NCBI GenBank assembly: GCA_017447875.1
Contig: JAFSMP010000016.1
Coordinates: 1 to 51,142, forward strand
Reading direction: 5' to 3'
Origin: Paludibacteraceae bacterium
GTDB taxonomy: Bacteria; Bacteroidota; Bacteroidia; Bacteroidales; Paludibacteraceae
DNA: 51,142 bases
How positions within the stretch are numbered: position 1 is the stretch's first letter; each line of letters starts with the position of its first letter. Under the pieces are notes generated by a model. It did not search any database. It was not told the DNA's origin and was given only the letters and a program-made list of their open reading frames with translations. Both the position numbers and the translations under genes were made by a program. This document shows, one piece after another, positions 5,187-49,782 of the stretch.

Positions 5187-5358
5187 GAATAGCAATAAGT
5201 TGTTAGTTTACGAAATGATCAGGTCATTTTTGGCGCTATTGTCCACACCAAATGGTGTGCCTGCTGCACCGCTGGCGCAGAGAACGGATGCAGGATTCAT
5301 GGGAATGGTCTCCACTATCGGAGAGAAATATACTCGTCTCATAACATTTACCATTTTG

Positions 5359-8157
5359 TCATTTACCATTTACTATTTGTCCTATTGCATTATAGGTCTT
5401 CCCGTCACGGATAATGAAGAGCTGACCATTACGGATGACCTTATTGATGATTGGTGATTGGTCATTGGTAATTTGCTCTATGCCTGTCGGACTCTGCGGT
5501 GCGTTGGCATTACCGATACGCAGTTGGCGGCGACCGGGAACATAAGACGGTCCTTGCGGTTCGGAGCTTACTTCGCTCATATCCACATACGCACGGTACT
5601 CACGGATCTTGACATTGCTACCGGCTTTGGTGAACATGTTGTTATAGGTGACATACATACCCGGTGTAATCGCGGTCATGTCGGCATACACGCCATAGAC
5701 GCCGTTTCCGTCATTGCCGGCTGCGGTATAATCGCCACTATAGTTACAAACGAGTTCGCTGCCTTCGGGTACATAGAAATACGGTTGGCCGGCTTCGAGT
5801 GCGCCCACGTGCTCTTGGAGATAGATCTCAGCCGGTTCAGCAGCCGTTCCTCCTGCTTTGTAGAGCATGGTATAGAAGGTTGCACCGGTGTACGAATCAA
5901 TCTGATAGGGGTAGCAGAGCGTATTGAGGTTCATATGCTCGTGGGTACGGGTGTACTGCAGAACCGCCGGTTTCTTGAGGTAGGTCACACGGATAGAATG
6001 GCAATAGAAATCGCCCGGAGTCTGCTGTGCAAACGTTAGTTCCGATTCGCGTACTTCGCCGCAAGACCATGTGGTTTCATTCTTTTGCTCAGATTCTTGC
6101 AAGGTGCTTACTTGTACGTCACTGCTGTTGGTAATGAGCAGATCCAGGAAATTCGTACCTCCGTTCAGGTTGCCTTTCTTATTCCAAACGAAGACTACTT
6201 CGCTGATATACGAATCAGCAGGTACTTCCACTTTGAGGCTGGTGATGCCATATTGCGACTGCATGCGTACACCACGGTTCTCCGAGGCAGGAGAGATGGT
6301 ATTGTTATTGGCATTGGAGAACGAAGCAGTTACTTCGCCCTCGGTGAAGGTCGGGTTCTTTGAAGCCTCAAAGTCCGTAAAGACGAGTCCTTTGACACCT
6401 TCGCCTTCCGCGTCTTCTACCAAAGCCGCTACATTCAGATCTTTGACATCGAGGTACTTGCCGTCGGTTTCGCTCCACCAGAACAGTTTGACAGAAACGG
6501 TTCCTTTCAGACCTTGCAATGCAGCCTCTTCGGAGAGGTTAACAACACGCTTCATATCGGAGGTACCATAAGTATTCGGGCCAACCACATCCAATGTCTT
6601 GATCACTTCGCCGTTGTTGTAGATCTTCACTTGGTAATACGCATCTCCGGCATCCGACAATACGTCCGAGGTGAGCATTTTGAGCGATACCTGTTTACCT
6701 AATTCGGCTGTCATATCGAAACCGTAGTAGCAACGCTCGTCCAGTGCATTCACGTATTCATCTGTAGCATAGATATAGTTGCGGTAGTTAGGGGTACCGT
6801 TGTTTGCATAACATTCCTGCATACCGCCATTATACCAATAGAGTTTGCGACCTTTGTTGGTCAATGAATTCTGCGAACCGAAGTTTTGGGTAACCGTGAT
6901 GCCTTCTACAGAAGGATCCACCAACGCGTCATCGGAAACGGCATAGCCGGAAACTTCCGTATCGGAGGAAGTAGTCACTTCGGTATCCACCGTACGGGTC
7001 AGACCGAACGTCTGCGTACCGTCAGTGATATGCGAAACAATCGCTTTTACCTGCAAGTCTTTGATAGCTACGTACTGCGCGCTGGCGGTGTTCCAGAAGA
7101 ACAGCTTAACGGTAATGGTACCGGTTAAGTCCTGCAAGGACGCATCTTTAGCGATACCTATGCTGCGCTTCATGTCGGAGGTAGTAGCCGTAGCTTCTAC
7201 TTCATCAAAGGTACGAAGCAACACACCGTTATTATAGATTTTCACTACATAGTGCGTATTACTGTTACTTTTCAATACGTCGGAGACAAGACGCTGGAGA
7301 GATAGTTTATAGCCATCTGCTACCGTCAGATCAAAACTGAAATAGATACCATCGTTGAGTTCGGTGAAGACATCCGTTCCTATTTGGTTGCGGTAGTTCT
7401 TGACGCCTTTATCTACATAGCAGTTTTTGCTTGCTGTACCATCGTACCAATAGATAGCACGACCTTTATTGGTCAATACGTTAGCGCTCGGATAGTTCAT
7501 CGCCACGCTGATACCTGCTACCGACGGATCTACCAATACATCTTCTGCTACGGCGTAACCTGAAGCCAGCTCATCACTTGAAATGGAAGTAACGGATGCT
7601 ACCTCGCGGGTCACACCGAAAGCAACAGCCGCAGGGTCATCAGGGAAGGAAATTTCAAAGCCGGCGAAGAAAAAGTCGTTGTTGTAACTCGTCAGGTAAT
7701 ACACTCCGGCTTCATCCAGCGCTACCGTCCAAACTGGCGTGGAGCCAGGTTGTTTGGCATAAGCGGCTTCATCGGTAATCACATTATCCGCCTTGGATAC
7801 ATAGATACCGCGCTCTGCATCGCTAAAGGTGTAGAATGTCACCGAGCAAGGACCGCTAACCTTGAAAGCCAAACGGTCTTGTGCGTTTTTCAAACGGAGC
7901 GAGTTCAGATGAGTTCCGCCGGCAAAGGAAATATTTCCTTTGTTGGTAGCTACCGCGTTGGCTGTCGGAGCAAAGATTTGCCCGTCCGCATAGAGTGTAT
8001 TGGCAACGAGTTTATCAACGCCATTGTTCGTAATGTCATCGGCAATGAATACATAGTCGTAATCGATTGCCACGAGATCGTCCACGGTGGCAGCTTTCGC
8101 CCCCATGCTGCATACTGCCATCAGCAGCCATGCAACTAATTTCAGATAGTTTCTCAT
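5359..8157 (-). CDS. Large secreted surface protein with tandem duplicated domain and shared C-terminal module
   Basis: I do not recognise a catalytic domain in this 932-residue protein. A signal peptide (residues 1-22) is followed by an N-terminal beta-rich domain, then two copies of an approximately 195-residue unit (about 180-374 and 384-580). Each copy carries 'SGYAV...D.LVDPSV.GI', 'LTNKGR..YWY.G' and 'SDMKR', and resembles a carbohydrate-binding or adhesive beta-sandwich. Further beta-rich regions lead to the C-terminal module 'NGQLFIIRDGKTY', shared with two neighbouring products and probably a secretion or anchoring tail. The linker before it ('EQITNDQSPIIN') and the last residues (VNGK) are encoded by short tandem repeats. 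The gene lies 9 nt after the acetylesterase gene, presumably in one operon. Confidence 0.75.
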   Translation of the reverse strand: MRNYLKLVAWLLMAVCSMGAKAATVDDLVAIDYDYVFIADDITNNGVDKLVANTLYADGQIFAPTANAVATNKGNISFAGGTHLNSLRLKNAQDRLAFKVSGPCSVTFYTFSDAERGIYVSKADNVITDEAAYAKQPGSTPVWTVALDEAGVYYLTSYNNDFFFAGFEISFPDDPAAVAFGVTREVASVTSISSDELASGYAVAEDVLVDPSVAGISVAMNYPSANVLTNKGRAIYWYDGTASKNCYVDKGVKNYRNQIGTDVFTELNDGIYFSFDLTVADGYKLSLQRLVSDVLKSNSNTHYVVKIYNNGVLLRTFDEVEATATTSDMKRSIGIAKDASLQDLTGTITVKLFFWNTASAQYVAIKDLQVKAIVSHITDGTQTFGLTRTVDTEVTTSSDTEVSGYAVSDDALVDPSVEGITVTQNFGSQNSLTNKGRKLYWYNGGMQECYANNGTPNYRNYIYATDEYVNALDERCYYGFDMTAELGKQVSLKMLTSDVLSDAGDAYYQVKIYNNGEVIKTLDVVGPNTYGTSDMKRVVNLSEEAALQGLKGTVSVKLFWWSETDGKYLDVKDLNVAALVEDAEGEGVKGLVFTDFEASKNPTFTEGEVTASFSNANNNTISPASENRGVRMQSQYGITSLKVEVPADSYISEVVFVWNKKGNLNGGTNFLDLLITNSSDVQVSTLQESEQKNETTWSCGEVRESELTFAQQTPGDFYCHSIRVTYLKKPAVLQYTRTHEHMNLNTLCYPYQIDSYTGATFYTMLYKAGGTAAEPAEIYLQEHVGALEAGQPYFYVPEGSELVCNYSGDYTAAGNDGNGVYGVYADMTAITPGMYVTYNNMFTKAGSNVKIREYRAYVDMSEVSSEPQGPSYVPGRRQLRIGNANAPQSPTGIEQITNDQSPIINKVIRNGQLFIIRDGKTYNAIGQIVNGK
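5446..5474. repeat. In-frame short tandem repeat encoding the TNDQSPIIN linker
   Basis: The coding strand carries near-copies of AATGACC/AATCACC. The repeat sits precisely between the body of the 932-residue protein and its C-terminal module. A related array (TTTACCAT units) spans its stop codon at about 5347-5382. Confidence 0.75.
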
Positions 8158-8166
8158 GAATAATAG

Positions 8167-10035: not shown

Positions 10036-10086
10036 GGTGAATAAAAGTATTAAATTGTTAAACTGAAAGTTTTCAAATACGGCGGC

Positions 10087-10185: not shown

Positions 10186-10216
10186 TTGGCACATTCAGTT
10201 TTTTTTAGTACCTTTG
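10186..10216 (+). promoter_or_regulatory. Bacteroidota-type promoter of the AraC-family sensor gene
   Basis: TTG at 10186-10188, a 20-nt spacer and TACCTTTG at 10209-10216. The ATG lies only 21 nt beyond the -7 box, so the leader is very short. Confidence 0.8.
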
Positions 10217-10237
10217 CACCCTCAATTGAAAAGAACC

Positions 10238-12574
10238 ATGAGACGCTTAGTTATTATCCTTTCACTTTTCACTTTGCATCTTTCACTTTCCGCTACGGAG
10301 TACCGTTTGCGTTTTTTTGATGATAGGAATGGATTGAGTCATTGGCTCACGTCGCATGTGGTACAAGACTCTACAGGCATGGTGTGGGTAGCTACTTGGA
10401 ACGGTCTGAACCGTTTCGACGGGACTCGTTTTGTAGCATTCAAGACGCGTCCGGGAGATAATATCTCTACTCCATCGGATAAGTTCCGGCATATCAAGTT
10501 GACCAAAGATAACAACCTCTATTGTTTGGTAGAAGACAGTATATTCCTATTTAATACACGCGCGTGTACTTTCGACACGCTCACAGCAGCACAGCGGGCA
10601 GAGGTGCATGAACGGCTTCGTGCGAACCATGACCCCAATTATAGACGTAAGGATCTCACTTTCCAAACCGGTCTTACCCGACTGCAAAACATCCGCTATA
10701 AGTATGTCGATCCGGCGGAGAATGTATGGTTGATAGACGAGCATGGTCTGTATATCGCTACGCCCGTTATACCGCACGGAAAACGGATAGGAGAGGACGA
10801 AGTGCGGTATATAGCCAAACGCTCGAACGGTGAGATCTGGACGGCCCGACGCTATTCGAATCAAGTCACGGTCTATGACAGCACGCTGCATATGATCCGG
10901 ACGGAAGATTTCGGTGCGCCTGTCTATTGTATCCGCGAGACCGAAGACGGACATGTGTGGTTAGGTACCAAACCCGGGGCACTCATCGAGATAGACGGAA
11001 AGCAGCAGCATACTTATCCGAACGTGCGCAACGCGTATGATATCCTGCCGGATGAGCAGGGACTATGGGTCGCTACGTATGGGTTTGGATTGTGGCAGGG
11101 GAAAGACGGTGTTTTTGAGCAAGTACCCGGCACCGAAGGGATGTATATTCGGCGTTTGCTAAAAAGTACGGACGGGACCTTGTTTGCTGCCACTACTACC
11201 GGTTTGCTCGAATTGAGAGATGGACTTATCGCCTTGCACCAACGCGAAACAGGGAATAGTCATTCGCTCAGCAGCAATGCCGTCATGTGTCTTTCGGAGC
11301 ATCAAGGGAAGCTGTTTATCGGTACGGAAGGTGGAGGATTAAGCAGTATTCGGCTGAGCGATATAGAAGCCGGTCAATGGAACTTTGAACACTTGACTAC
11401 CAAGGACGGTTTGGCCAGTGACATCGTCTATGAGATCATGCCGTGGAACGATAGTACACTACTGCTGCAAGGCAATAATGCCTTAAGTCTGCTCCATACG
11501 CATACACCCGGCATCGTCAATTTCGAAAGCGCCTTTTTCAATTATACGGGCAATGAGCACCTTATCTTAGGCGAAGTACCGCCCTTGGATCTTGGCAACG
11601 CACGACTTCTGGTAGCTCCGCACGACGGACTGATGCTGCTGAACCGTGCGGATCTGCAACCTGAGACCAAACCTGTTCGTATAGCGATCAGCGCGCTCCA
11701 ACGTAGCAACGGACCCATGGAGTACGGGGTGGACACGGTAAGCCGGATCGTCCTCTCGCCGAAGGAACGCAGTCTCGGCGTGTGGTTCTCCGCTTTGGAT
11801 TTTAGGAACTGTGGCGCTGTCTTATACCGCTATCGGTTCGATAAAGTAGATGCTCAGGAGGTTCCTTGGAGTGCCGCTTCGTCGGTGGCAGAAATACAAC
11901 TGCCCGACCTGCACCCGGGAGAATATATCCTGGATATTTGCTCCACCAACGCCTACCAACAGTGGCAAAACAACGTGCGCCGCCTTACCATCATCGTCCA
12001 ACCGACCTTCATGGAAAGCGCTCTCGGACAAACACTCGTGCTTTTCGGAGCTTTTGCGGCGCTGCTTACTATCATCATCTCCCTATTGCACATGCGTGCC
12101 CTCAAGAAGAAACGTAAAGAAGCCTTGGAGGCCTATCTCGATGTGCAGGAACGGTTGGTGCAAATGACAAATGACAAATCACCCATCACCAATGGCACTT
12201 ATAAAGTGCCCGAAGTGATGGTTGCCGGTTATCTGAATAAGAACGAGCAGTTCTTGCAGACACTTACTGCGTTCATGGAAACGAATATGGGCAATGTGGA
12301 CATCACTGTCGATGACTTGATAGCAGCTACCGGAATGAGCCGCTCATCGCTTAACCGTAAGATGCATGAGTTATTCAACCTCTCTCCCAAGGACTTCCTG
12401 CAAGAGGCACGCATCAAGCACGCGTGTTCTCTGCTCAAGCAAACAGACCTCTCCGTCAAAGAAATCGCTTACTCCTGCGGTTTCAGTAACCCACATTACT
12501 TTGCTACAAGTTTCAAAGCCACCACAGGTCTCACGCCATCTGAGTATAGAGATGCCAAAAAGTCCCGAAAGTGA
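10238..12574 (+). CDS. Membrane-spanning one-component sensor-regulator (Reg_prop/Y_Y_Y/AraC)
   Basis: This 778-residue transcription factor would sense a periplasmic ligand and bind DNA directly. After a signal peptide come Reg_prop beta-propeller blades (for example 'GLNRFDGTRF', 'LWVATYGFGLW', 'LFIGTEGGGL'), a Y_Y_Y-type domain near residues 510-610 ('RYRFDKVDAQEVPWS'), one membrane helix (about 615-640), a short linker and a C-terminal AraC HTH ('MSRSSLNRKMHELFNLSPKD' and 'EIAYSCGFSNPHYFATSFK'). The histidine kinase and receiver domains of the usual Bacteroidales hybrid two-component sensors are absent. The start is the ATG at 10238; an upstream TTG falls inside the -7 box. The cytoplasmic linker 'QMTNDKSPITN' is encoded by short tandem repeats. 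It probably controls the divergent secreted-protein operon. Confidence 0.85.
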   Translation: MRRLVIILSLFTLHLSLSATEYRLRFFDDRNGLSHWLTSHVVQDSTGMVWVATWNGLNRFDGTRFVAFKTRPGDNISTPSDKFRHIKLTKDNNLYCLVEDSIFLFNTRACTFDTLTAAQRAEVHERLRANHDPNYRRKDLTFQTGLTRLQNIRYKYVDPAENVWLIDEHGLYIATPVIPHGKRIGEDEVRYIAKRSNGEIWTARRYSNQVTVYDSTLHMIRTEDFGAPVYCIRETEDGHVWLGTKPGALIEIDGKQQHTYPNVRNAYDILPDEQGLWVATYGFGLWQGKDGVFEQVPGTEGMYIRRLLKSTDGTLFAATTTGLLELRDGLIALHQRETGNSHSLSSNAVMCLSEHQGKLFIGTEGGGLSSIRLSDIEAGQWNFEHLTTKDGLASDIVYEIMPWNDSTLLLQGNNALSLLHTHTPGIVNFESAFFNYTGNEHLILGEVPPLDLGNARLLVAPHDGLMLLNRADLQPETKPVRIAISALQRSNGPMEYGVDTVSRIVLSPKERSLGVWFSALDFRNCGAVLYRYRFDKVDAQEVPWSAASSVAEIQLPDLHPGEYILDICSTNAYQQWQNNVRRLTIIVQPTFMESALGQTLVLFGAFAALLTIIISLLHMRALKKKRKEALEAYLDVQERLVQMTNDKSPITNGTYKVPEVMVAGYLNKNEQFLQTLTAFMETNMGNVDITVDDLIAATGMSRSSLNRKMHELFNLSPKDFLQEARIKHACSLLKQTDLSVKEIAYSCGFSNPHYFATSFKATTGLTPSEYRDAKKSRK
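10260..10291. repeat. Short tandem repeat in a signal-peptide region
   Basis: TTTCACTTTTCACTTTGCA-like units encode the hydrophobic signal segment 'LSLFTLHLSLS' of the AraC-type regulator. Confidence 0.55.
12161..12195. repeat. In-frame short tandem repeat in the AraC-type regulator
   Basis: AAATGAC units followed by AATCACC/CATCACC units encode 'QMTNDKSPITN', placed between the membrane segment and the DNA-binding domain. Confidence 0.75.
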
Positions 12575-13064: not shown

Positions 13065-13331
13065 TTATTTAACTAACGTTCCGTCCATACTAAACATACG
13101 ACCGTCACGGATGATGTATATATGATTATTCAGAAGAACCTTTGTAACGGTGAGCGGTGAGGGGTGAGCGGTGAGCGGCTCAACATCCGTAGGCGTCTTG
13201 CTGATCGGTGTAGCGCTGATGACGAAGCGAGCCTCGTTATCTCCGGCAGTGCACGTGAATGGATGGAACGATATGCGCCGCATCGGGTACGAAGTCATTG
13301 ACCATCAAAGCTTCAGATGGTGTTCATCCGA
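13065..13331 (-). pseudogene. Remnant C-terminus of a secreted protein with the shared tail module
   Basis: An open frame of 77 residues (13298-13065) contains 'ISFHPFTCTAGDNEARFVIS', the linker 'EPLTAHPSPLTVTK' encoded by short repeats, and 'NNHIYIIRDGRMFSMDGTLV', a diverged copy of the tail found in the two proteins to the left. There is no signal peptide or body domain. Just upstream a different frame reads 'ALMVNDFVPDAAHI', which would continue the same protein after a one-base shift, and an in-frame stop precedes the first ATG. I take this as the end of a decayed secreted protein. A short functional peptide is less likely. Confidence 0.65.
13149..13180. repeat. Short tandem repeat in the linker of the remnant secreted protein
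   Basis: GGTGAGC/GGTGAGGG units encode 'EPLTAHPSPLT' immediately before the C-terminal module. Confidence 0.7.
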
Positions 13332-14953: not shown

Positions 14954-15733
14954 ATGCAACAAGTACGTGCCAAAAAGTTTTTGGGACAGCACTTTTTGAC
15001 GGACCTCACGGTCGCCCAAAAAATTGCTGATACCATCACCTCGGGTCGAACGATAGAGATCGGTCCGGGTATGGGTGTGTTGACGCAATATCTTCTGAAA
15101 AATCCCAATATCAACTTGACTGCGATAGAGATCGACCGGGAGTCGGTGGCTTATCTGCGTGAATGGTATCCGGAATTGGACCTGGTGGAAGGTGATTTCC
15201 TGAAGCTGGATCTGAATCAATTGATACCGGAAGGTGAGTTCAACGTGATCGGTAATTATCCATACAACATCAGCAGTCAGATTTTCTTTAAGGTACTGGA
15301 ATACAAGGACCGTATTCCGGTGTGTTCGGGAATGATACAGAAGGAGGTTGCGGAGCGGTTGGCTAGTAAACCGGGTAAGAAGGCATATGGGATACTGAGT
15401 GTGCTTTTGCAAGCGTATTATGATATAGAATATCTGTTCACGGTAGATGAACATGTGTTCAACCCGCCGCCTAAAGTGAAGTCCGCGGTGATACGGATGA
15501 CACGGAACAAGCGACGACGGTTGGACTGCGATGAGGCGCTATTTAAGACGATTGTCAAAACTTCATTTAATCAACGCCGAAAGCAAATGCGAAATTCGTT
15601 GAAGGGGTTAGTGGATGAGAGGAATAGTGGATTAGTGGATGAACGACTATCCTGGTTCCTTACCCGAAGGCCGGAACAGTTGTCAGTAGATGAGTTCATC
15701 GAATTAACCAAGTTAATTCAAATTGAAAATTGA
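14954..15733 (+). CDS. rsmA: 16S rRNA (adenine1518/1519-N6)-dimethyltransferase RsmA (KsgA)
   Basis: This enzyme dimethylates two adjacent adenines in helix 45 of 16S rRNA during 30S assembly. The start 'MQQVRAKKFLGQHFL' is the family's usual beginning; the open frame extends 69 codons further but through the promoter. The SAM site is 'TIEIGPGMGVLTQYL', and the catalytic block is 'GNYPYNISSQI' (motif IV, N-x-P-Y). The C-terminal domain has 'TSFNQRRKQMRNSLKGL' and 'KRPEQ'-like 'RRPEQLSVDEFIELT'. Between these the sequence 'GLVDERNSGLVDER' is a direct duplication encoded by a tandem repeat at 15605-15644, not expected in the family. At 259 residues the length is normal. corA follows 19 nt downstream. 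Confidence 0.95.
   Translation: MQQVRAKKFLGQHFLTDLTVAQKIADTITSGRTIEIGPGMGVLTQYLLKNPNINLTAIEIDRESVAYLREWYPELDLVEGDFLKLDLNQLIPEGEFNVIGNYPYNISSQIFFKVLEYKDRIPVCSGMIQKEVAERLASKPGKKAYGILSVLLQAYYDIEYLFTVDEHVFNPPPKVKSAVIRMTRNKRRRLDCDEALFKTIVKTSFNQRRKQMRNSLKGLVDERNSGLVDERLSWFLTRRPEQLSVDEFIELTKLIQIEN
15605..15644. repeat. In-frame tandem repeat in rsmA
   Basis: Two copies of GGNTTAGTGGATGA with a degenerate half copy between them encode 'GLVDERNSGLVDER' in the C-terminal domain of the rRNA methyltransferase. Confidence 0.75.
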
Positions 15734-15752
15734 AAATTTAAAATTGAAAGTT
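15719..15752. repeat. AT-rich short tandem repeat across the rsmA-corA junction
   Basis: AAATTGAAAATTGAAAATT-like units cover the last rsmA codons ('QIEN'), its stop codon and the spacer before corA. Confidence 0.65.
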
Positions 15753-16863: not shown

Positions 16864-17841
16864 ATGGATTTAAAAAATAAAGAATATATTGATAAAATAA
16901 AATCTTTAGCGAAGGCGAAGAAGGCTGTTATTTTTGCGCACTATTATACAAGGCCGGAGATACAAGAATGTGCCGATTTTATCGGAGATTCGTTGGCGTT
17001 GGCACAACAGGCTACGCGCGTGGACGCGGATATATTAGTAATGTGCGGTGTGCATTTCATGGGTGAGACGATGAAGATCCTGTGTCCGGATAAGAAAGTG
17101 CTGATACCGGATATGGAGGCAGGGTGTTCGTTGGCGGACTCGTGTAAGGCAGATGAACTCAAAGAGTTAATAATTAAAAATTCAAAATTAAAAATTCAAA
17201 ATTGCGATGCCGGTGAAAAGCCGATCGTAGTATCCTACGTGAACACGAGTGCGGAGGTGAAGGCACTGACGGATGTGGTGGTGACGTCTTCGAACGCCAA
17301 GAAGATAGTAGACCAGTTACCGAAGGACGCCAAGATCATCTTCGGTCCGGATCATAACTTAGGCAGTTATATCAACAGCGTAACGGGACGCAATATGATT
17401 CTTTGGAACGGAGCGTGCCACGTACACAGCCGTTTCAGTTTGGATGCGCTGTTGGCACTGAAAGCTGCCAATCCGGGTGTAGAGGTGTTAGCTCATCCGG
17501 AATGTAAGGCACCTATCTTGGCGCAGAGCGACGTGATCGGTTCGACGAAGGCCTTGCTCGAGCACACGATTAGATCGTCCGCCAAACGCTTTATAATAGC
17601 TACAGAAAGCGGTATTCTGTTTGAGATGAAGCGTGCGTGTCCGGATAAGGAGTTTATTCCGGTTCCACCGGAAGTGACGGAAGGCGTGGGTTGCAGTTGC
17701 AACGAATGCGAGTACATGCGGATGAATACGCTGGAGAAGTTGTATGACTGTCTGCTGAATGAAAGTCCGGAAATGGTGGTACCAAAAGAGACAGCCGCTA
17801 AAGCCGTCTCTTCGATCCAACGGATGCTGGAGATGAGTTGA
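16864..17841 (+). CDS. nadA: Quinolinate synthase NadA
   Basis: NadA condenses iminoaspartate with dihydroxyacetone phosphate to quinolinate in de novo NAD synthesis and carries a [4Fe-4S] cluster. The three expected cysteine ligands are visible in 'MEAGCSLADSC', 'NGACHVH' and 'GVGCSCNECEYM'. The start 'MDLKNKEYIDKIKSLAKAKK' matches the family. Residues about 100-119 ('IIKNSKLKIQN' plus flanks) are an in-frame insertion encoded by a short tandem repeat, in a surface loop before the conserved 'VVSYVNTSAEVKA'. No nadB or nadC is in the window. The 160-nt gap upstream shows no clear promoter. The stop codon abuts the end of the convergent gene with no spacer. Confidence 0.95.
   Translation: MDLKNKEYIDKIKSLAKAKKAVIFAHYYTRPEIQECADFIGDSLALAQQATRVDADILVMCGVHFMGETMKILCPDKKVLIPDMEAGCSLADSCKADELKELIIKNSKLKIQNCDAGEKPIVVSYVNTSAEVKALTDVVVTSSNAKKIVDQLPKDAKIIFGPDHNLGSYINSVTGRNMILWNGACHVHSRFSLDALLALKAANPGVEVLAHPECKAPILAQSDVIGSTKALLEHTIRSSAKRFIIATESGILFEMKRACPDKEFIPVPPEVTEGVGCSCNECEYMRMNTLEKLYDCLLNESPEMVVPKETAAKAVSSIQRMLEMS
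17161..17210. repeat. In-frame AT-rich short tandem repeat in nadA
   Basis: Units of AAAAATTC / AAAATTAA encode 'IIKNSKLKIQN' within quinolinate synthase, where relatives have a shorter loop. The unit resembles the intergenic arrays at 15719, 46566 and 47025. Confidence 0.75.
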
Positions 17842-20395: not shown

Positions 20396-21169
20396 TTAGT
20401 CTTTTGGTTGATTTTTTAAGCTATTCTCCAAGAAATCCGACAGGCATAGCCGCCACATGTGCCAGTTATGATTGCCGTGGAAGTGCACGAAGCGGTGGGT
20501 ATAACCGGCACGGGAAATGCGACGGTGAAAACGTTTTCCGCTGGGTGCGAATATATCCTTGGTGCCGACATAAACTGAGTAATGCTGGGTAGAGTCCTTG
20601 GGTAACTGGTCCTTATGCAAGACAGGAGAGAAGAGTCCCACGGTGCGTATCCGGTCCGGACGGAGGTTCGCTACGTTCGCTGCCATTCGGGCCCCGTCAC
20701 TAAGTCCGGCTATCGCACAGTCCGAGACCTGATAGGTAGTATCTATATGGTCGATCAGGTCACTGATGGCATACTCTAACACGTGCTCGTGCGTCAGCTT
20801 GCCGTAGTGCGTCACGCATTTCCACAGGTTACCATGGTCTATTGGTCGCTGCTTGAAAGGCCATTTATTACAGTCCGGCATAATGAGTATCACGGGTTCA
20901 CAACGCCCGGTTGCTATCAACGCTTCTAACGTGTCTATCGCGTCACCTTTGTCCTGCCATGAACCCTCATAGCCGTTGATACCGTGGATGAGATAAAGAC
21001 ATTTACCATTTACCATTTGAGGTGGGATATAAATATCCACCCTTCTCTCTATCTGCTCGTGATGGCTGAACCAGCGGGTATGGATGATGTTATGCCGTAC
21101 GACCGTAGTGTCCGATGAGCGGATGATGAGCGGCAGCAGGCATAGGAGTAATAAGAGGATACGTCGCAT
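20396..21169 (-). CDS. Secreted alpha/beta-hydrolase esterase (putative esterase/CE1-like)
   Basis: This 257-residue hydrolase has a signal peptide (MRRILLLLLCLLPLIIRSS) when read from the ATG at 21169. It shows the fold landmarks of PF00756 esterases: 'CLYLIHGINGYEGSW' (oxyanion region), 'PVILIMPDCN', the nucleophile elbow 'IAGLSDGAR', and the catalytic histidine in 'FHGNHNWHMWR'. Such enzymes act on acetyl or feruloyl esters of polysaccharides, or on other esters. The loop 'PPQMVNGK' is encoded by short tandem repeats. The start lies 80 nt inside the end of the glycosyltransferase gene, an unusually long overlap. It is co-transcribed with that gene and followed by the promoter of the hydrolase operon. 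Confidence 0.75.
   Translation of the reverse strand: MRRILLLLLCLLPLIIRSSDTTVVRHNIIHTRWFSHHEQIERRVDIYIPPQMVNGKCLYLIHGINGYEGSWQDKGDAIDTLEALIATGRCEPVILIMPDCNKWPFKQRPIDHGNLWKCVTHYGKLTHEHVLEYAISDLIDHIDTTYQVSDCAIAGLSDGARMAANVANLRPDRIRTVGLFSPVLHKDQLPKDSTQHYSVYVGTKDIFAPSGKRFHRRISRAGYTHRFVHFHGNHNWHMWRLCLSDFLENSLKNQPKD
21000..21020. repeat. Short tandem repeat within the esterase gene
   Basis: Three CATTTAC/CATTTGA units encode 'QMVNGK', just before the conserved beta strand and HG motif. Confidence 0.6.
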
Positions 21170-22463: not shown

Positions 22464-23243
22464 TTATCTTAAAAATCGTACCATTCTCCATTCGCCGTTA
22501 CAAACGGTTTCGATGGGATGAAGGTTATAGGAAGCGGCAGAATCGACAAGTGCCGGAATGTCGGATTCATAGAATCCGCTGAGCCATAACTGTCCACCGG
22601 GAGCCAGGCAGGCGGCATAAGAGGGCATGTTGGCGAGTAGGATATTACGGTGGATGTTGGCGAGGATAAGGGTGAAAGGTGAAAGGTTATAGGTTAAAGG
22701 ATCCAAGACCGGTCCACAGAGATCTACTTCGATGGATTCGTTATTCAGCGCGGCATTCTCTTTGGCGTTGCTTACACTCTTATCGTCGATATCCAGCGCC
22801 AGCACCGATTCAGCTCCAAGTCGTTTGGCGAAGATAGCCAGCACACCGGTTCCGGTTCCGTGGTCCAAGACGCGCTTGCCATTCAGGTCGGTGGTCATCA
22901 GGGCATCGATCATCATCGACGTCGTCTCATGGTGCCCCGCACCGAAGGCGCAATGCGGGATGATACGCACACCCAGAGGTAATTCCTGCATCGGATGTTC
23001 AGCCTCCCACGTGGCATTCCAGTTCTCATCCGGGCACGGTTCGATGCTCAGCAGTTGAGCCTTCTCCGTGTTCGCAAACAGCGCTTCTATCGCCGATTGA
23101 TTGGCGGTCCATAATTCCGAAGGGATATAGGCATCCTGACCGTCAAAGGTGTCAAAACCTGCGTCAAAAAGCGACTGCACGAACAGATCGTTTTGCCATT
23201 CTTCGTCAAAATGCAGGTCGATATGGGCGACGTGGTATCTCAT
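22464..23243 (-). CDS. prmA: Ribosomal protein L11 methyltransferase PrmA
   Basis: PrmA trimethylates ribosomal protein L11. The N-terminal substrate domain ('MRYHVAHIDLHFDEEWQNDL') is followed by the family landmarks 'IIPHCAFGAGHHETTSMM', the SAM site 'VLDHGTGTGVLAIFAKRLGA', 'VLALDIDD' and the 'LILANIHRNILL' block equivalent to the N-P-P-Y region. Between 'IEVDLCG' and 'LILANI' the sequence 'LDPLTYNLSPFT' is encoded by short repeats and replaces the usual short 'FD' turn. At 259 residues it is a little shorter than proteobacterial versions, as is usual in this phylum. Its ATG is one base after the DUF2851 stop, so the two are coupled. Confidence 0.95.
   Translation of the reverse strand: MRYHVAHIDLHFDEEWQNDLFVQSLFDAGFDTFDGQDAYIPSELWTANQSAIEALFANTEKAQLLSIEPCPDENWNATWEAEHPMQELPLGVRIIPHCAFGAGHHETTSMMIDALMTTDLNGKRVLDHGTGTGVLAIFAKRLGAESVLALDIDDKSVSNAKENAALNNESIEVDLCGPVLDPLTYNLSPFTLILANIHRNILLANMPSYAACLAPGGQLWLSGFYESDIPALVDSAASYNLHPIETVCNGEWRMVRFLR
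22671..22700. repeat. In-frame short tandem repeat in prmA
   Basis: GGTGAAA/GGTTATA/GGTTAAA units encode 'DPLTYNLSPFT', directly before the catalytic-site strand. Confidence 0.7.
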
Positions 23244-24606: not shown

Positions 24607-25569
24607 TCAAAAATAATCTTCAATTCTCAATACTATCGGTAAATGGTCCGAATAGCCGTTTTGGTAATGAAATCCGTTATATGTTCGTTTGGGTTTGAGT
24701 CCCAAGTATTTCTCATCGGGTTCTTGTATCCATTCCGCGTCATACACCTCTGCCTGCGACACACTGTCGATAGCCGGAGACACATAGAAATGGTCTAAAA
24801 ATGTCCATCGTCCTTGATATTTGTGGGTACCGGATTGGTCATTGGTCATTGGTCGTTTGTCATTGGTCCATTTATCCTTTAATCCTTTCACCTTCAAATC
24901 CCCGCTGTTCATATCCCCCATGACGATGATTTTTGCGTCTGGATAGGTAGCGTACACACTGTCTATTGCCCGTTCCAAGACCTGTTTGGCTGCCTCTCGT
25001 TTCCACTCACTCTCTGCTTTTCCGCCCCGCTGACTCGGTAGATGGCAAACAAAGAAATGAATCGTGTCCTGCTTGTCTATCTGTGCGCAGACATATAGTA
25101 TGTCACGCGTTGTTTGAGGGTTTGACGTAGTTTGAGACAGTTTGACGGGAATGGCTCTCGTTTGTATCGTATCCACCCTACTCTTCTTATACATCAGCGC
25201 CACATCGATCCCTCGTAGGTCGGGACTCTCGTAATGCACGAAATCATACTCATTGCGCCGCAGCGTATAACATAATCGCTTGACACACAGGGCGTTCTCT
25301 ACTTCTTGCAGTCCGACTACATCTACCCCATCCCACTCACCGATGTTCGTCAGCACCCGCGCGATGTTATCCACTTTCTTATAGTACCGCGTGTAACTCC
25401 AATGCCTTTCTCCGTCTGCTGTCCACTCGATATCATCCTTCAGACTATCGTGCGCCGGATGAAACAAGTTCTCGACGTTGTAACTCACAATATGCAAAGG
25501 TGCGGACTTAAGGGACAAATGCCCCGAAAGTCCTGCACATAAAAGCAATATGATGAGTTCACGTTTCAT
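24607..25569 (-). CDS. Secreted endonuclease/exonuclease/phosphatase-fold protein
   Basis: This 320-residue protein has a signal peptide (about 1-22) and the complete EEP active-site series: 'VSYNVENLF', 'GLQEVENALCVKRL', 'VCHLPSQRGG', 'KIIVMGDMNS', 'TFLDHFYVSP' and 'YSDHLPIVL'. It could be an extracytoplasmic nuclease or phosphatase; the substrate is unknown. Between 'GDMNS' and 'GTHKYQGRW' relatives have a short loop, whereas here 'LKVKGLKDKWTNDKRPMTND' (and flanks) is encoded by short tandem repeats. The start overlaps the 4-TM protein gene by ATGA, placing it third in an operon that begins with an ECF sigma factor. Confidence 0.85.
   Translation of the reverse strand: MKRELIILLLCAGLSGHLSLKSAPLHIVSYNVENLFHPAHDSLKDDIEWTADGERHWSYTRYYKKVDNIARVLTNIGEWDGVDVVGLQEVENALCVKRLCYTLRRNEYDFVHYESPDLRGIDVALMYKKSRVDTIQTRAIPVKLSQTTSNPQTTRDILYVCAQIDKQDTIHFFVCHLPSQRGGKAESEWKREAAKQVLERAIDSVYATYPDAKIIVMGDMNSGDLKVKGLKDKWTNDKRPMTNDQSGTHKYQGRWTFLDHFYVSPAIDSVSQAEVYDAEWIQEPDEKYLGLKPKRTYNGFHYQNGYSDHLPIVLRIEDYF
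24834..24895. repeat. In-frame short tandem repeat in the EEP-fold gene
   Basis: ATTGGTC units (coding strand AATGACC) followed by weaker TTTATCC/TTTCACC units encode 'KWTNDKRPMTNDQ' and the residues preceding it, close to the catalytic GDMN motif. Confidence 0.75.
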
Positions 25570-44597: not shown

Positions 44598-44598
44598 G

Positions 44599-45807: not shown

Positions 45808-45841
45808 AAAGATAAAAGTCGAAAGAAAAAAGCAGGTAGGT

Positions 45842-46567
45842 ATGAAATATATTCTTAGACCGTTTTATTGGTTGTACCAATATCTGATAGCGTGGCCGTT
45901 GCTGCTGGTGTTGACGGCTTTCACAGCCTTCTTCACGATATGCACGGTGCATTGGCGTAATGCGGAGTTCGTGCATAAGGAGCAGCAGTTCTGGTCGCGT
46001 GCGTTCTTCTGGTTAATGTTCCTGCCGGTTTCGGTGGACGGACAAGAGAATATCCAACCCGGACAGAGTTATGTCTTCGTCTCCAACCATCAGTCGATGT
46101 TCGACGTGTGGCTTATCTACGGTTGGTTACCGGTGGTATTCAAATGGCTGATGAAAGCGGAGTTGCGCAAGGTGCCGTTCATCGGTTCGGGTTGCAAGGC
46201 CGCCGGTCATATCTTCATCGAACGCCGGAATGCCAAGGCTGCGTTGGAGAGTATCAAAGAGGTGGAGAAACAGCTCGTCAACGGGGTAAGCACGGTGATT
46301 TTCCCCGAAGGCACCCGTTCTTTGAACGGAGAGACCGGACGTTTCAAACGCGGTGCGTTCCAGATCGCTTTGGACCTGGGCTTGCCGGTGATACCGCTGT
46401 CGCTCGACGGCTGTTTTGAGGTATTACCGAAAGGCAAACCCTTCGTTCACCGCCATCCTGTACACATGCATATCGGTAAACCCATCGACCTTAAGCAGTT
46501 CGAGGATCCCAACGATGCCATCGAAGCTGTCCGTAATGCGGTGATTAATGGCAGAATGAAAAAATAA
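45842..46567 (+). CDS. plsC: 1-acyl-sn-glycerol-3-phosphate acyltransferase PlsC
   Basis: PlsC makes phosphatidic acid from lysophosphatidic acid at the inner membrane. I use the ATG at 45842 ('MKYILRPFYWLYQYLIAWPL'); the open frame runs back into the kinase gene. A membrane segment near residues 12-35 precedes the four acyltransferase motifs: 'VSNHQSMFDVWLI' (H-x4-D), 'GSGCKAAGHIFIERR', 'VIFPEGTRSLNGE' and 'LGLPVIPLSLDG'. At 241 residues the length is normal. It starts 34 nt after the kinase stop. Confidence 0.93.
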   Translation: MKYILRPFYWLYQYLIAWPLLLVLTAFTAFFTICTVHWRNAEFVHKEQQFWSRAFFWLMFLPVSVDGQENIQPGQSYVFVSNHQSMFDVWLIYGWLPVVFKWLMKAELRKVPFIGSGCKAAGHIFIERRNAKAALESIKEVEKQLVNGVSTVIFPEGTRSLNGETGRFKRGAFQIALDLGLPVIPLSLDGCFEVLPKGKPFVHRHPVHMHIGKPIDLKQFEDPNDAIEAVRNAVINGRMKK

Positions 46568-46600
46568 ATCACAAATTACAAATTACAAATCATAAATAAT
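46566..46600. repeat. AT-rich short tandem repeat between plsC and the HIT gene
   Basis: ACAAATT/ACAAATC units fill the spacer between the two genes, the same kind of array as at 15719 and 47025. Confidence 0.65.
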
Positions 46601-46603
46601 ATC

Positions 46604-47041
46604 ATGTATTCCGATCCCAAAGATTGTCTCTATTGCACGAACAATGAGACCTTGCACAATTTGATGATAGAGATCGCGCACTTGCGCGTATCGCGCGCGT
46701 TCTTATTTAAAGAGCAGACTTATCACGGTCGTTGCCTGGTGGCATACGATGAGCACGTGAATGATCTCAATGAACTGAGTGATGAACAGCGTAACCTGTT
46801 CATGGCAGATGTGGCAGATGTGACCCGCGCCATGCAGAAACTGTTCAAACCGGAGAAGATCAATTACGGTGCGTATTCCGATAAGCTGAGTCACCTGCAT
46901 TTTCACTTGGCTCCGAAGTATGTCGATGGTCCGGACTACGGAGGTACGTTCCAGATGAACCCGGGTAAGGTCTATCTGACGGATGCCGAGTATGCCGAGA
47001 TGGTAGACGCACTACGTGCGGAATTAAAAATTAAGAATTAA
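46604..47041 (+). CDS. HIT-family nucleotide hydrolase
   Basis: This 145-residue protein is a histidine-triad hydrolase or transferase acting on nucleoside phosphoramidates or dinucleotides. The triad is 'KLSHLHFHLAPKY' near residue 95. The N-terminus has 'CLYC', a zinc-binding pair seen in some HIT proteins, and 'GRCLVAYDEHVNDLNELSDE' is the usual strand-loop before the helix. Its last codons ('ELKIKN') are encoded by an AT-rich short repeat that continues into the holB start. Confidence 0.9.
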   Translation: MYSDPKDCLYCTNNETLHNLMIEIAHLRVSRAFLFKEQTYHGRCLVAYDEHVNDLNELSDEQRNLFMADVADVTRAMQKLFKPEKINYGAYSDKLSHLHFHLAPKYVDGPDYGGTFQMNPGKVYLTDAEYAEMVDALRAELKIKN

Positions 47042-47055
47042 AAATTAAGAATTGC
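47025..47055. repeat. AT-rich short tandem repeat at the HIT-holB junction
   Basis: GAATTAAAAATTAA units cover the HIT stop codon and the TTG start of holB, so both gene ends are made of repeat sequence. Confidence 0.7.
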
Positions 47056-48209
47056 TTTTTAAGGACATTATAGGACAAGAAGAGGTGAAGCGGCAGTTGT
47101 GCGCTTCGGTGCGTGAGGGACGAATCCCCCATGCGCAACTCTTCACGGGTATATCGGGTATCGGTAAGTTACAACTGGCACTCGCTTATGCCCAGTATCT
47201 CAACTGTCCGAATCGCACGGAGAATGACAGTTGCGGTACCTGTCCGACCTGTCTGCAGTTCGAGCACCTGCAACATCCCGATCTGCATTTCGTCTTCCCG
47301 ATCGTGGGATCGGATGAGACCTGCGATGCGTTCCTGGAGTCCTGGCGGGAGATCATCTTACAAAAACATTATTTTGACCTCGAGGACTGGCATAAAGCGC
47401 TGGGCGTAGAGACCAAGCAGTCGATGATCTATGAGAAAGAGAGCGGGGAGATACTCCGCAAACTCAGTCTTAAGCCGTACGGCAACGGCTATAAGGTGAT
47501 GATCATCTGGCAGCCGGAGAAGATGAATATCACGACTGCGAACAAGTTGCTCAAACTGCTGGAAGAACCGCCCGAGAAGACCGTCTTTTTGCTCGTCTCC
47601 GAACACCCCGAACAACTGCTGGCGACGATCCAATCGCGTGTGCAGACGATCCGTGTGCCGCGTCTGGAGACCGAAACGATCGCTGAGGCGCTACAACAAA
47701 AAGGACTCGATGCCGTTCAGGCACAGGATATCGCCCGGATAGCGAACGGCAGTTACCTGGCAGCACTCAAAAAGTCCGATGAATCCGAAGAGAATCAACA
47801 GGAGTTACGCGATTTCATCGCACTATTTCGGGACGCCTATACGGTGGGTGTACTCAAAGACCCGCAGAAGAAATACGAGTCTCTCAAACGGTTGCGGCAG
47901 TGGAGTCTGGACATGGCGGACAGCAAAGTGGGTAGGGAACGCCAGAAGCATTTTCTGCAATATGCCCAGCAGCAGGTGCGGGAGAATTATATCCGGAATA
48001 TAGGTCAACCGGAACTCAATTATCAAATGGAAGCGGAGCGCGATTTCTCCGTTAAATTCGCGCCTTTTATACATAACGGCAATGTGGAAGGTATCATGAA
48101 CCAACTGGACCTTGCCGAACGACAGATAGAACAGAACGGCAACGCGAAGATGATCTTCTTCGACCTTTGCCTGCAAATGATAGTGCTAATAAAGAAACCG
48201 AAGATATGA
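47052..48209 (+). CDS. holB: DNA polymerase III subunit delta' (clamp-loader component)
   Basis: Delta' is the stator of the sliding-clamp loader. The protein begins 'LFKDIIGQEEVKRQLCASVR', typical of the family, from a TTG codon; a stop lies two codons upstream, so no ATG start is available. The P-loop region reads 'FTGISGIGKLQLALAYAQYL', with Leu where ATP-hydrolysing relatives have Ser/Thr, consistent with delta' being inactive. A four-cysteine zinc module is spelled out in 'CPNRTENDSCGTCPTCLQF'. 'TTANKLLKLLEEPPEKTVFL' and 'QSRVQTIRVPRL' are conserved blocks. At 385 residues the length is normal. It overlaps the PSP1 gene by ATGA. Confidence 0.93.
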   Translation: MLFKDIIGQEEVKRQLCASVREGRIPHAQLFTGISGIGKLQLALAYAQYLNCPNRTENDSCGTCPTCLQFEHLQHPDLHFVFPIVGSDETCDAFLESWREIILQKHYFDLEDWHKALGVETKQSMIYEKESGEILRKLSLKPYGNGYKVMIIWQPEKMNITTANKLLKLLEEPPEKTVFLLVSEHPEQLLATIQSRVQTIRVPRLETETIAEALQQKGLDAVQAQDIARIANGSYLAALKKSDESEENQQELRDFIALFRDAYTVGVLKDPQKKYESLKRLRQWSLDMADSKVGRERQKHFLQYAQQQVRENYIRNIGQPELNYQMEAERDFSVKFAPFIHNGNVEGIMNQLDLAERQIEQNGNAKMIFFDLCLQMIVLIKKPKI

Positions 48210-49294
48210 ATGACAAGAATACATTAAGAGCTGCGGCTACCAAGCGCAACTCCGCGCATATGTTACCGGTGAGTGACTGGCTGAGTGACCTGCCGGAGAA
48301 CACCCGACTGACCGACCTGATCGAGGTGCAGTTCAAGAACACCCGAAAGGGCTATTTCCATAATAGCCAGGGCCTGCCGCTGGAGAAAGGCGTGAAGGTC
48401 GTCGTGGAAGCCAATCCGGGCTATGACCTCGGTGAAGTCGTGCTGACCGGCAAACTGGTCGAACTGCAGATCAAGAAAAACAAGATCGATGCTTCCCGGT
48501 ATGAGATTCGTCAGGTCTTGCGTATCGCTACGGACGAAGACCTGGAGCGTGCCAAACAGGCTCACGCGCGCGAGCAGGAGACGATGATCAAAGCCCGCCA
48601 ACTCGCCAAGTCGCTCGGTCTGGAGATGAAGATAGGTGATGTAGAGTACCAGGGAGACGGTTCCAAGGCGATCTTCTTCTACATCGCAGACGGTCGTGTG
48701 GACTTCCGTCAACTGATCAAGGTCTATGCCGAGACTTTCCGCATACGCGTAGAGATGAAGCAGATCGGTGCTCGTCAGGAAGCAGGACGTATCGGTGGTA
48801 CAGGTCCTTGCGGTCGGGAGTTATGTTGTTCCACATGGATGATCAATTTCTCGTCCGTAGGAACAGGTGCGGCACGTTTGCAGAATATATCGCCGAACCC
48901 GCAGAAACTGGCAGGTATGTGCGCCAAGCTCAAGTGCTGCTTGAACTACGAGGTGCCGGTCTATGAAGATGCCTCGAAGTTATTGCCGAACCGGCATATC
49001 GAGTTGGAGACCAAGGATGCCACGTGGTATTTCTTCTCGTCCGATCCGCTTGCAGGTACGGTCACGTATTCGTCTGATCCGCAACGCGCAGCTAACCTGA
49101 CAACCCTTACGGCCGCTCGTGCCCATGAGATCATTGAGATGAACCGCTTTGGCGAGAAACCCGATACGCTCGAAGGAACCCGTGCGGTATCTACAGAGAT
49201 TGGTTACCAGACCGGTCATGGCGATGTCACGCGTTTTGACCGTAAGAAACAGCATCGCCATAATGACCGCAGAGACAGGAGGGACAGAAGATGA
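48206..49294 (+). CDS. PSP1-domain protein (RicT/YaaT-like)
   Basis: This 362-residue protein has the PSP1 C-terminal domain of Bacillus RicT (YaaT), part of a Fe-S-containing complex affecting RNA processing and development. I use the ATG at 48206, which overlaps the holB stop. The core has 'IEVQFKNTRKGYFHN', 'LGLEMKIGDVEYQGDGSKAI', and the Cys-rich 'IGGTGPCGRELCCSTWM' and 'LAGMCAKLKCCLNYEVPV', likely the cluster ligands. The tail is Arg/His/Asp-rich (KKQHRHNDRRDRRDRR), possibly RNA-binding. Placement between holB and gldH is common in this phylum. Confidence 0.9.
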   Translation: MNDKNTLRAAATKRNSAHMLPVSDWLSDLPENTRLTDLIEVQFKNTRKGYFHNSQGLPLEKGVKVVVEANPGYDLGEVVLTGKLVELQIKKNKIDASRYEIRQVLRIATDEDLERAKQAHAREQETMIKARQLAKSLGLEMKIGDVEYQGDGSKAIFFYIADGRVDFRQLIKVYAETFRIRVEMKQIGARQEAGRIGGTGPCGRELCCSTWMINFSSVGTGAARLQNISPNPQKLAGMCAKLKCCLNYEVPVYEDASKLLPNRHIELETKDATWYFFSSDPLAGTVTYSSDPQRAANLTTLTAARAHEIIEMNRFGEKPDTLEGTRAVSTEIGYQTGHGDVTRFDRKKQHRHNDRRDRRDRR

Positions 49295-49782
49295 AAAAGT
49301 CTTACAGCGATAGCGGTCTTACAGCGAAGCGGTCTTACAGGCTGCTTGCAGCCGGTCTTATATCGTTAGCGGTCTTATTCTCTTCTTGTAGAAACGACAT
49401 CGTATATAGTCATTTTTCTTCGATTCCATCGGAGAAATGGCATATGGATTCGGTGATGCATTTTGACTATACGATCGCGGATAAACAACCCGCATACCGT
49501 ATGTTGATTTACGTGCGTCATACGGAGTGCTATCCCTATCAGAATATGTGGCTCTTTGTGGGCGACAGCCTGCATCGGGACACGATTGAGTTCTATTTGG
49601 CAGACGACCGTGGACAGTGGTTAGGCGACAAACACCACGGTTTCATCGAGATGCCGGTGCTGCTTGAGGACAACTATCATTTTGCGGATACGGGTTCCTA
49701 CTATCTTGATATCACCCACGGCATGCGTGATACCCTTCTTCGTGGTGTCACCGATATCGGTCTCGAGATTCTCAAGCAATAA
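49291..49782 (+). CDS. gldH: Gliding motility lipoprotein GldH
   Basis: GldH is a lipoprotein required for gliding in Flavobacterium and conserved in Bacteroidales. The lipobox is 'LAVLFSSCRND' with the modified Cys near residue 33. Family features are 'VYSHFSSIPSEKWHMDSVM', 'YPYQNMWLFVGDSLHRDT', 'LADDRGQWLGDKHHG', 'GSYYLDITHGMRDTLLRGV' and the end 'DIGLEILKQ'. The signal peptide is unusually long because its DNA contains a tandem repeat (49299-49378). The ATG overlaps the PSP1 stop by 4 nt. It is last in its operon. Confidence 0.9.
   Translation: MKKSYSDSGLTAKRSYRLLAAGLISLAVLFSSCRNDIVYSHFSSIPSEKWHMDSVMHFDYTIADKQPAYRMLIYVRHTECYPYQNMWLFVGDSLHRDTIEFYLADDRGQWLGDKHHGFIEMPVLLEDNYHFADTGSYYLDITHGMRDTLLRGVTDIGLEILKQ
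49299..49378. repeat. Tandem repeat in the gldH signal-peptide region
   Basis: About 15-nt units containing AGCGGTCTTACAGCGA occur three times and decay into two further GCGGTCTTA copies. They encode the basic, serine-rich and hydrophobic part of the signal peptide. Confidence 0.7.

Follow-up and report, generated by a model that had tools for sequence, protein, structure and literature searches.

Degenerate heptamer arrays dispersed in a rumen Paludibacteraceae-type genome and its relatives, with in-frame interchange of repeats at protein loops

Tandem heptanucleotide repeats dispersed in the genome are known from filamentous cyanobacteria as short tandemly repeated repetitive (STRR) sequences, and the Rickettsia palindromic elements (RPE) were reportedly described by Ogata et al. 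in 2000. Here we examine degenerate short tandem arrays in the window, by which we mean the whole 51,142-nucleotide contig JAFSMP010000016.1 (assembly GCA_017447875.1), a stretch of a rumen Paludibacteraceae-type metagenome-assembled genome (MAG) labelled G000. The consulted portions of Rehm et al. 2015 (PMC4692102) describe degenerate heptamers, GGGNATC/GGGGA(C/T)T, in Xanthomonas and Nostoc, where four units are preferred and a link to quadruplexes is drawn. Excerpts of MacGregor 2015 (PMC4679880) report TAACTGA heptamer direct repeats in Beggiatoaceae, cyanobacteria and five Bacteroidetes, which makes the remark in the preliminary description of the window that no named system exists for this phylum partly outdated. 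Our literature searches turned up no account of loop interchange in Bacteroidales.

The arrays are several genome-specific families and not the single family first proposed. They are dispersed, peaked in size, variable at a restricted set of positions and divided into genome dialects; repeats are interchanged in frame between sister loci, and two inserts have exact copies elsewhere. With confidence evenly divided for and against, we read them as dispersed short repeats that are copied between genome places by a short-patch process and filtered by selection on the encoded peptide. G000 is a 2.25-Mb draft in 70 contigs (completeness 76.7%), and its NadA relatives, at identities of up to 92%, come from rumen and gut MAGs that carry the name Bacteroidales or Paludibacteraceae. 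The genomes analysed here are draft assemblies, MAGs for the most part; L-numbers denote individual loci.

Arrays were listed with Tandem Repeats Finder (TRF, score at least 30) and, more strictly, with a lag scan set against third-order Markov copies. Fourteen of the fifteen arrays named in the preliminary description are listed by TRF; the one at 8246 is not and is left unsupported. Ten of the fifteen pass the lag-7 scan, where ten Markov copies of the window give an expectation of 0.0. Nothing is returned at lags 4-6 or 8-13; lag 14 (2x7) returns five, lag 15 two and lag 16 one. Besides 8246, the arrays outside the lag-7 list are 15605 in rsmA (period 8), 49299 in gldH (period 16-17), 3069 (lag 15 only) and 10260 (weak period 7). 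The period, initially put at roughly 6-8 bp, is dominantly 7, and the 8 bp of rsmA and 16 bp of gldH belong to separate families. The arrays of the window are as follows.

3068..3108, no strand: degenerate array of GATTAGG units between genes; TRF score 45, lag-15 form 51; absent from the lag-7 list, lag 15 scores 12
5345..5378, minus strand: degenerate AAATGGT/AAATGAC array at the 3' end of open reading frame (ORF) 5359-8157; TRF score 38, lag 15 scores 12
5443..5473, minus strand: AATNACC array in ORF 5359-8157, peptide ITNDQSPIIN; TRF and lag-7 scan
10260..10289, plus strand: weak TTTCACT array in the hydrophobic N-terminal stretch (LSLFTLHLSLS) of ORF 10214-12574; TRF score 39, below the lag-7 threshold
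12161..12193, plus strand: AATNACM array in ORF 10214-12574, peptide MTNDKSPITN; TRF and lag-7 scan
13148..13178, no strand: CGGTGAG array, intergenic; TRF and lag-7 scan; no ORF of at least 100 aa over the array
15605..15640, plus strand: octamer array (NGGATNAN type) in the RsmA loop, peptide GLVDERNSGLVDER, loop variable in congeners; TRF period 8, score 45, and loop comparison
15720..15752, no strand: AATTGAA array at the rsmA-corA boundary; TRF and lag-7 scan
17167..17203, plus strand: AATTAAA/AATTCAA array in the NadA loop, peptide IIKNSKLKIQN; TRF and lag-7 scan, Pfam NadA
21000..21018, minus strand: short AAATGGT array in a loop of a putative esterase, peptide QMVNGK; TRF and lag-7 scan, Pfam
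22668..22700, minus strand: CCTTTNA array in the PrmA loop, peptide PLTYNLSPFT; TRF and lag-7 scan, Pfam PrmA
24834..24868, minus strand: AATGACC array in an exonuclease/phosphatase-family protein; TRF and lag-7 scan, Pfam
46566..46601, no strand: AATNACA array between two co-oriented genes; TRF and lag-7 scan
47022..47053, no strand: AATTAAA/AATTAAG array over the end of ORF 46604-47041 and the start of ORF 47052-48209; TRF and lag-7 scan
49299..49340, plus strand: 16-17 bp array (GTCTTACAGCGAAGCG) at the start of GldH; TRF, repeat-family scan, Pfam GldH

The host proteins are ordinary by Pfam: NadA, RsmA, PrmA, the exonuclease/phosphatase-family protein, the esterase, GldH and an AraC-type hybrid regulator (ORF 10214-12574); ORF 47052-48209 is of the DNA polymerase III delta type (DNA_pol3_delta2). 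The array at 13149, at first taken to be coding, is intergenic. L031, L033, L042 and L066 carry arrays with other units at a distance from nadA equal to that of the 15720..15752 array. The GldH array is part of a separate dispersed family with a unit of about AGACCGCTTCGCTGTA and variants (core word 12 times in 451 kb of G000), and other long repeat units are present in G050, a relative. Near the arrays at 3068 and 13148 lie two genes, 3390-4814 and 13436-14704, which we take to encode AAA-type ATPases.

The census used three genome samples, each covering 16-20% of its genome, so that donors could be missed. That of G000 comprises the window and 20 further stretches (451 kb in total), mostly picked around AATNANN hits, and over-represents the AATNANN family for that reason; that of G134 is a contiguous, unselected 400 kb, and that of G050 is 374 kb in stretches mostly on contigs with known hits. 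G000 holds 100 lag-7 arrays, about 1 per 4.5 kb, and 0-12 at each of the other lags (3-6, 8-13; none at lags 4, 5 and 13, twelve at lag 8, nine at lag 11). There are 64 lag-7 arrays in G134 and 54 in G050, and the 80 NadA loci of relatives that were scanned (543 kb) give 80 at lag 7, none at lag 6, fifteen at lag 8 and nineteen at lag 11. A degenerate AAT pattern, its units variously spelled, occurs in 101 of the 150 genomes scanned from the family and in 137 of 296 from the phylum, counts to which AT-rich genomes may add chance matches and for which the control is not neutral: the reversed pattern matches other heptamer dialects (314+334 control hits in G012), and we therefore rely on the lag scans.

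Array length is peaked, with a median of 32 bp in three sets and of 34 bp in G050, which has a longer tail. Arrays of 29-35 bp make up 43 of 69 inside ORFs in G000 and 17 of 31 elsewhere, and five consecutive AAT anchors are the mode among AATNACM arrays (24/44). Variation between the units of an array is confined to few columns: G000 has 155 variable columns against a random mean of 196.3 (minimum 185 of 200 randomisations), and G134 (95 versus 127.3) and G050 (101 versus 142.5) point the same way. Position 4 of AATNACM is free (T43 G42 C70 A22 in 177 units), position 7 is A or C, and the remaining positions, by which the family was picked, are 86-98% fixed. The free base is correlated within an array, where 73 of 144 neighbours match, compared with 42.4 when all arrays are pooled; shuffling units within each array still gives 72.0 of 144, so that copying from neighbour to neighbour is not visible. 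Transitions account for 71 of 231 changes in G000, near the one third expected without bias, and somewhat more in G134 (90/202) and G050 (79/170). The AGTCGAA family, at up to four mismatches to a query itself 30 bp long, is represented by 5 copies in G315 and 9 in G316 (400 kb each), and the ends of all 14 are in phase.

Unit spelling is shared far beyond composition. Pairs of G000 arrays with an identical consensus unit number 170, against a mean of 17.7 and a maximum of 30 in 200 letter-shuffles of each unit, so units are not merely as alike across loci as base composition would make them. The commonest G000 units are AATCACC, AAATCAC, AAAGTCG and AAAAATT, none with a G-tract. Same-unit pairs are commoner within genomes (G000 3.4%, G134 3.8%, G050 1.7%) than between them (1.4, 0.4 and 0.75%), and the 270 within-genome pairs exceed the 144.6 (sd 11) obtained with shuffled genome labels (maximum 188 of 300); the choice of stretches inflates this sharing in G000 and does not in G134. 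A larger mobile element with common flanks was considered and rejected, as flanks match between different arrays in only 7/4950 (G000), 11/2016 (G134) and 7/1431 (G050) pairs, and the matches listed are neighbours, paralogues or short stretches. Besides arrays, the commonest repeated words in the three samples come from a TTTGCATATNTCNAAAAAAGCAGTACCTTTGCA-like stretch, presumably a Bacteroidetes promoter.

Relative to mechanical ORFs, 69 of the 100 G000 arrays lie wholly inside, 23 at edges and 8 between; the corresponding counts are 38, 17 and 9 in G134 and 24, 17 and 13 in G050. Coding DNA is nonetheless under-occupied, since these ORFs cover 93-94% of the sequence, above the share of arrays inside them. 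AATNACM arrays inside ORFs are read in sense in 31 cases, giving NDQSPIT, and in antisense in 3, the other strand being more hydrophobic. Some arrays form N-terminal hydrophobic stretches (FIIHYSFLIAALLHC, CILYSVLCTPL) that by eye read as signal peptides. The strand bias and N-terminal use look like selection on the peptide after placement. The near-identical peptides TNDQSPIIN, MTNDKSPITN and PMTNDQSG, on which the preliminary description remarked, are present and are explained by the DNA, because three heptamers make seven codons and any frame of one strand yields the same cyclic peptide.

Placement in loops of unrelated conserved proteins, also claimed at the outset, holds up, and relatives without arrays are seen. 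In NadA, RsmA, PrmA, the exonuclease and the esterase, the matching place in congeners is taken by a different array, a GC-rich hairpin or a plain loop. Loop positions in NadA, PrmA and RsmA rest on protein alignments and PDB sequence matches, and fillings were classed by eye. Among 79 of 80 NadA loci (L096 was removed by a length filter), seven loops hold heptamer arrays, four a GC-rich hairpin (NSLPFREGSGVG and NSLSCGEGRGEV types) and six another long loop, the rest being short and plain. The RsmA loop was located in 61 of 80 loci and is derived in 22, with at least ten different fillings that include AGTTGAA, AGTCGAA, AATGGAA, AATGGAC and GGGTTAC arrays, octamers and hairpins; an automatic count of derived alleles gave 26 of 62, and setting aside L089, L092 and L093, plain loops with V for I, leaves 23 by eye (22 loci and the window). 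The PrmA comparison, which shows 30 loci, counting our own, from the 59 genomes where PrmA was matched, has five arrays, four hairpins and several other inserts among 29 relatives, the rest plain. For the exonuclease and the esterase, with 30 loci shown in each case from 165 and 74 genomes respectively, variously spelled arrays occur beside plain loops. That distant homologues might carry matching residues at these positions is not borne out; nor do arrays alone occupy the loops, unrelated GC-rich hairpins doing so too. The exonuclease loop at 24834..24868 is 24 bp longer than in the five nearest relatives shown, and the esterase loop at 21000..21018 is as long as that of some array-free relatives. 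Some fillings being as long as array-free loops, replacement occurs besides insertion. In the genomes of L068, L065 and L067, the loci L288-L297 carry a GC element whose inner part is longer (GAGTTCTACGACCGTCCACAGGACGCTCGATCGAGC) and whose ends resemble those of the short hairpin form.

Sister loci, 87-96% identical, show in-frame swaps between repeat families directly, MurD included. The 400-kb stretches of G315 and G316 have almost no orthologous overlap, and four local locus pairs were compared instead (13.9 kb, local segments 87-94% identical), one reached via nadA and three via a 21-mer, which biases repeat density upward. They contain 30 unalike blocks, 13 of them, classed by eye, with an array, hairpin or GC element on at least one side. 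Every length difference in these 13 is a multiple of three, two being zero, and four blocks set an array against a hairpin. The MurD loop reads FEPLSNSPHKGEGFRIIDTDN in one genome and FGKLVESQNGTEPVERPIQIIDTDN in the other, with few changes on either side; further repeat-bearing blocks lie in alanine racemase, an ABC ATPase, a THUMP-like protein and a GH130 protein. The insertion first proposed thus fits events that change length, and not the equal-length replacements among these blocks (2/13) and in NadA and exonuclease/esterase loops. Fifteen sister pairs at NadA loci (90-96%), compared after setting aside 59 mildly divergent blocks, blocks of more than 200 columns and blocks with poor flanks, give 32 strongly unalike blocks. 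Half of them (16) hold a repeat, and the frame is kept in 14 of these 16 against 9 of the 16 without one. At 18 array sites compared between sisters, array columns are 0.72 identical and flanks 0.92, pairs and directions not being independent.

Two of the rsmA inserts are matched exactly at other places. That of L046, a 21-mer, occurs at four exact places in its own genome, one of them rsmA, and at three in the L054 genome, where rsmA has no insert. That of L068, a 30-mer, occurs at five places in its own genome (two exact, one of these being rsmA, the others with 1-2 mismatches), at three in the L065 genome and at two in the L067 genome; rsmA lacks the insert in both. A 1-kb query with an AGTCGAA element finds 48 places in G315 and 46 in G316, most of those listed on the element and some elsewhere in the query. 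These donor copies and the sister swaps back the spread within genomes that was initially supposed. One case, L167, bears on change in place: two arrays in paralogous stretches, separated by 6.5 kb, agree in length, phase and AAT anchors and differ at 11 of 32 positions, counted by hand, all outside the anchors. Their 50-bp flanks show about 7 differences (five right beside the array) and 2, and the copies diverge further out. An array may have been rewritten in place here; independent replacement is an alternative.

On the copying account, the arrays are dispersed repeats, about 30-35 bp long and mostly built of four 7-bp steps and an anchor (a minor class has 8-bp steps), in several genome-specific families. 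Copies would be written from one genome place to another, either by insertion or by replacement of DNA of similar length, and an array already present may be rewritten in part. Copies would survive where harmless, at gene ends, in permissive loops in frame and in N-terminal hydrophobic stretches, and the permissive loops would become exchange sites at which one repeat family replaces another. The copying itself would be short-patch and templated, by microhomology template switching or by short-patch illegitimate recombination. The latter is a candidate copying route. Our search for literature on it found none, PMC5312590 holding only cited titles on illegitimate recombination.

Several observations weigh against this account. 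Unit order over 18-24 bp shows no clear excess over unit-shuffled arrays (23 versus 21.1 pairs at 21 bp in G000, 30 versus 23.8 in G134), which counts against an origin of most arrays in these two genomes by simple recent copying; in G050 it lies above all shuffles at 14 bp only (50 versus 33.9, maximum 45). Much is simply inherited: 12 of the 18 sister arrays, some changed at free positions, keep an identity of at least 0.6, and 6 fall below. Five of the fifteen NadA-locus pairs have no repeat-bearing block, and the five array-versus-hairpin blocks in this set amount to about three distinct events, as pairs share members. Flanks over 60 columns are high for some swaps (L068/L065 0.97/0.97, L057/L040 0.92/1.00) and weaker for others (L037/L085, 0.80-0.88), which lowers our confidence slightly. 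The sisters are species-level MAGs, not strains, and alleles could have been imported. Neither a target-site duplication nor a shared target motif caught the eye at the sister junctions, where no statistical test was applied, and no enzyme for the copying was identified.

Local slippage is the strongest of the alternatives, if unlikely: a chance seed would be extended by 7-nt polymerase slippage and decay by point mutation, and the likeness of units would reflect a sequence preference of slippage. The dominance of period 7 suits it, as other bacteria show the same and a tie to polymerase slippage has been drawn there (Mrazek's hypothesis, as told in passages of PMC4679880, and PMC4692102, likewise in part). 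So do the lack of a clearly shared unit order between loci and the arrays that run into like native sequence (L056/L057 near TGGTC; the PrmA loop). Slippage-type simple sequence repeats, however, have identical units and stepwise copy number, and here units vary at preferred positions. Lengths peak near 32 bp, in ORFs and outside, instead of falling from the threshold; variation keeps to few columns with no transition excess, and neighbouring units are no more alike than shuffles. Because of the peaked size, the mask, the donors of two inserts and the exchange with unrelated hairpins at matching loops, slippage alone is insufficient.

Somewhat less probable is allele exchange, in which species would swap gene segments by homologous recombination and old repeats would merely be shuffled between them. 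Derived rsmA loops do have flanking RLEWFLTRR or close variants in common, though the upstream part of L033 is closer (0.904) to plain-loop L045 than to any derived allele. Near-identical rsmA inserts occur in L031, L082 and L084, whose NadA is 92, 79 and 74% identical to that of the window, which suggests allele transfer. Some swaps, however, sit between highly identical flanks (L068/L065, L057/L040), the MurD swap has few changes on either side, and matching repeats stand at other loci within those genomes; the flanks of other swaps (L037/L085) argue less strongly.

That the arrays are selected sites, at which a protein or a DNA structure such as a G-quadruplex needs the four-step form, we consider improbable. 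It would agree with the conserved anchors, the free positions and the preference for a certain number of steps, and the four-unit preference of GGGNATC is so read in the sections seen of PMC4692102. The commonest families here, however, have no G-tracts, 69 of 100 arrays lie in ORFs, units differ between congeners, and unrelated hairpins stand at matching sites.

Mobility of the kind associated with repetitive extragenic palindromic (REP) sequences has a shade less credence still: REP-associated tyrosine transposases (RAYTs) would move the GC-rich hairpins and perhaps the heptamer arrays. Bacteroidetes have RAYT subclasses of their own with atypical structures, according to portions of PMC6006769, and G000 encodes two proteins related to NF047646 (39.8 and 32.9 bits; L357:496-1608 and L358:1300-2376), of about 360-370 aa with an MPDHIH motif and a long C-terminal extension. 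Both fall below the curated cut-off of 80 bits. The L357 gene has a hairpin upstream and TGGTCGCG three times downstream, with none of the heptamer families in its flanks, and TGGTCGCG is not clearly enriched elsewhere. G000 is rich in arrays and almost devoid of GC hairpins (4 versus 2 in the Markov control, both strands counted), against 38-48 versus 2-4 in G134, G315 and G316, three genomes in which RAYT genes were not sought. The GC hairpins fit a REP palindrome in shape only, and the heptamer arrays are direct repeats and not palindromic. REP-type transposition is unsupported for the arrays. An assembly artefact is hardly credible: the genomes are drafts and mostly MAGs, but an ordinary read is longer than elements of about 31 bp, both gene flanks and the reading frame are intact, and variation at the loops recurs across many independent MAGs.

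Beyond the copying account, we tentatively entertain a bolder claim, which we hold to be doubtful rather than probable: that a specialised short-patch process in these Bacteroidota writes four-step elements of about 31 bp with free unit positions genome-wide and exchanges one family for another at particular loops of essential proteins, quickly enough for differences to have arisen between sister loci diverged by 4-10%. On that view the preference of G-rich heptamers for four units would reflect the copying process and not a quadruplex function. The loops of MurD, RsmA, PrmA, NadA and alanine racemase hold different genomic repeats in close relatives with the protein around them little changed, and so give a direct view of loops gaining sequence. 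A four-step preference without G-tracts questions the quadruplex reading elsewhere and points to a common copying step, and the sister genomes offer ready before-and-after sites at which the mechanism is testable.

Compared by period only, STRR and the arrays are alike as dispersed tandem heptamers. REP and REPIN sequences with their RAYTs (PMC3116915 and PMC6006769, each in part) are likewise short, dispersed and present in many copies, and G000 has putative HUH-type genes; they are palindromic, however, and the arrays are not, and G000, with its RAYT-like genes, has almost no GC hairpins. The TAACTGA repeats, as far as extracts of PMC4679880 describe them, resemble the arrays in being dispersed heptamers, in occurring in the same phylum and in a spread proposed without a known mechanism. 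They differ in having one fixed unit whose near variants are rarely repeated and, in the main genome studied there, in lying mainly upstream of start codons. RPE, according to parts of PMC10969869, are also small in-frame repeats in unrelated genes, and in-frame presence in unrelated conserved genes with array-free relatives is found here in five genes and at the sister loci. RPE are, however, palindromic and about 150 bp long (same extracts), a form not found among the arrays, which are direct repeats of 30-35 bp (about 32 bp) in families that differ at one loop between sisters. The heptamers of Xanthomonas and Nostoc, in the sections consulted of PMC4692102, are likewise degenerate and dispersed, prefer four units and vary in length and sequence between close relatives; fixed and free positions and the four-unit preference are found here too, and a G-tract per unit and a mostly intergenic location are not. 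The xanthomonad heptamers are 89-93% intergenic with a G-rich unit, whereas 69 of 100 arrays here lie inside ORFs and the families are mostly AT-rich. Set against the GGGNATC type, the arrays described here comprise several families without G-tracts and share matching protein loops with unrelated elements.

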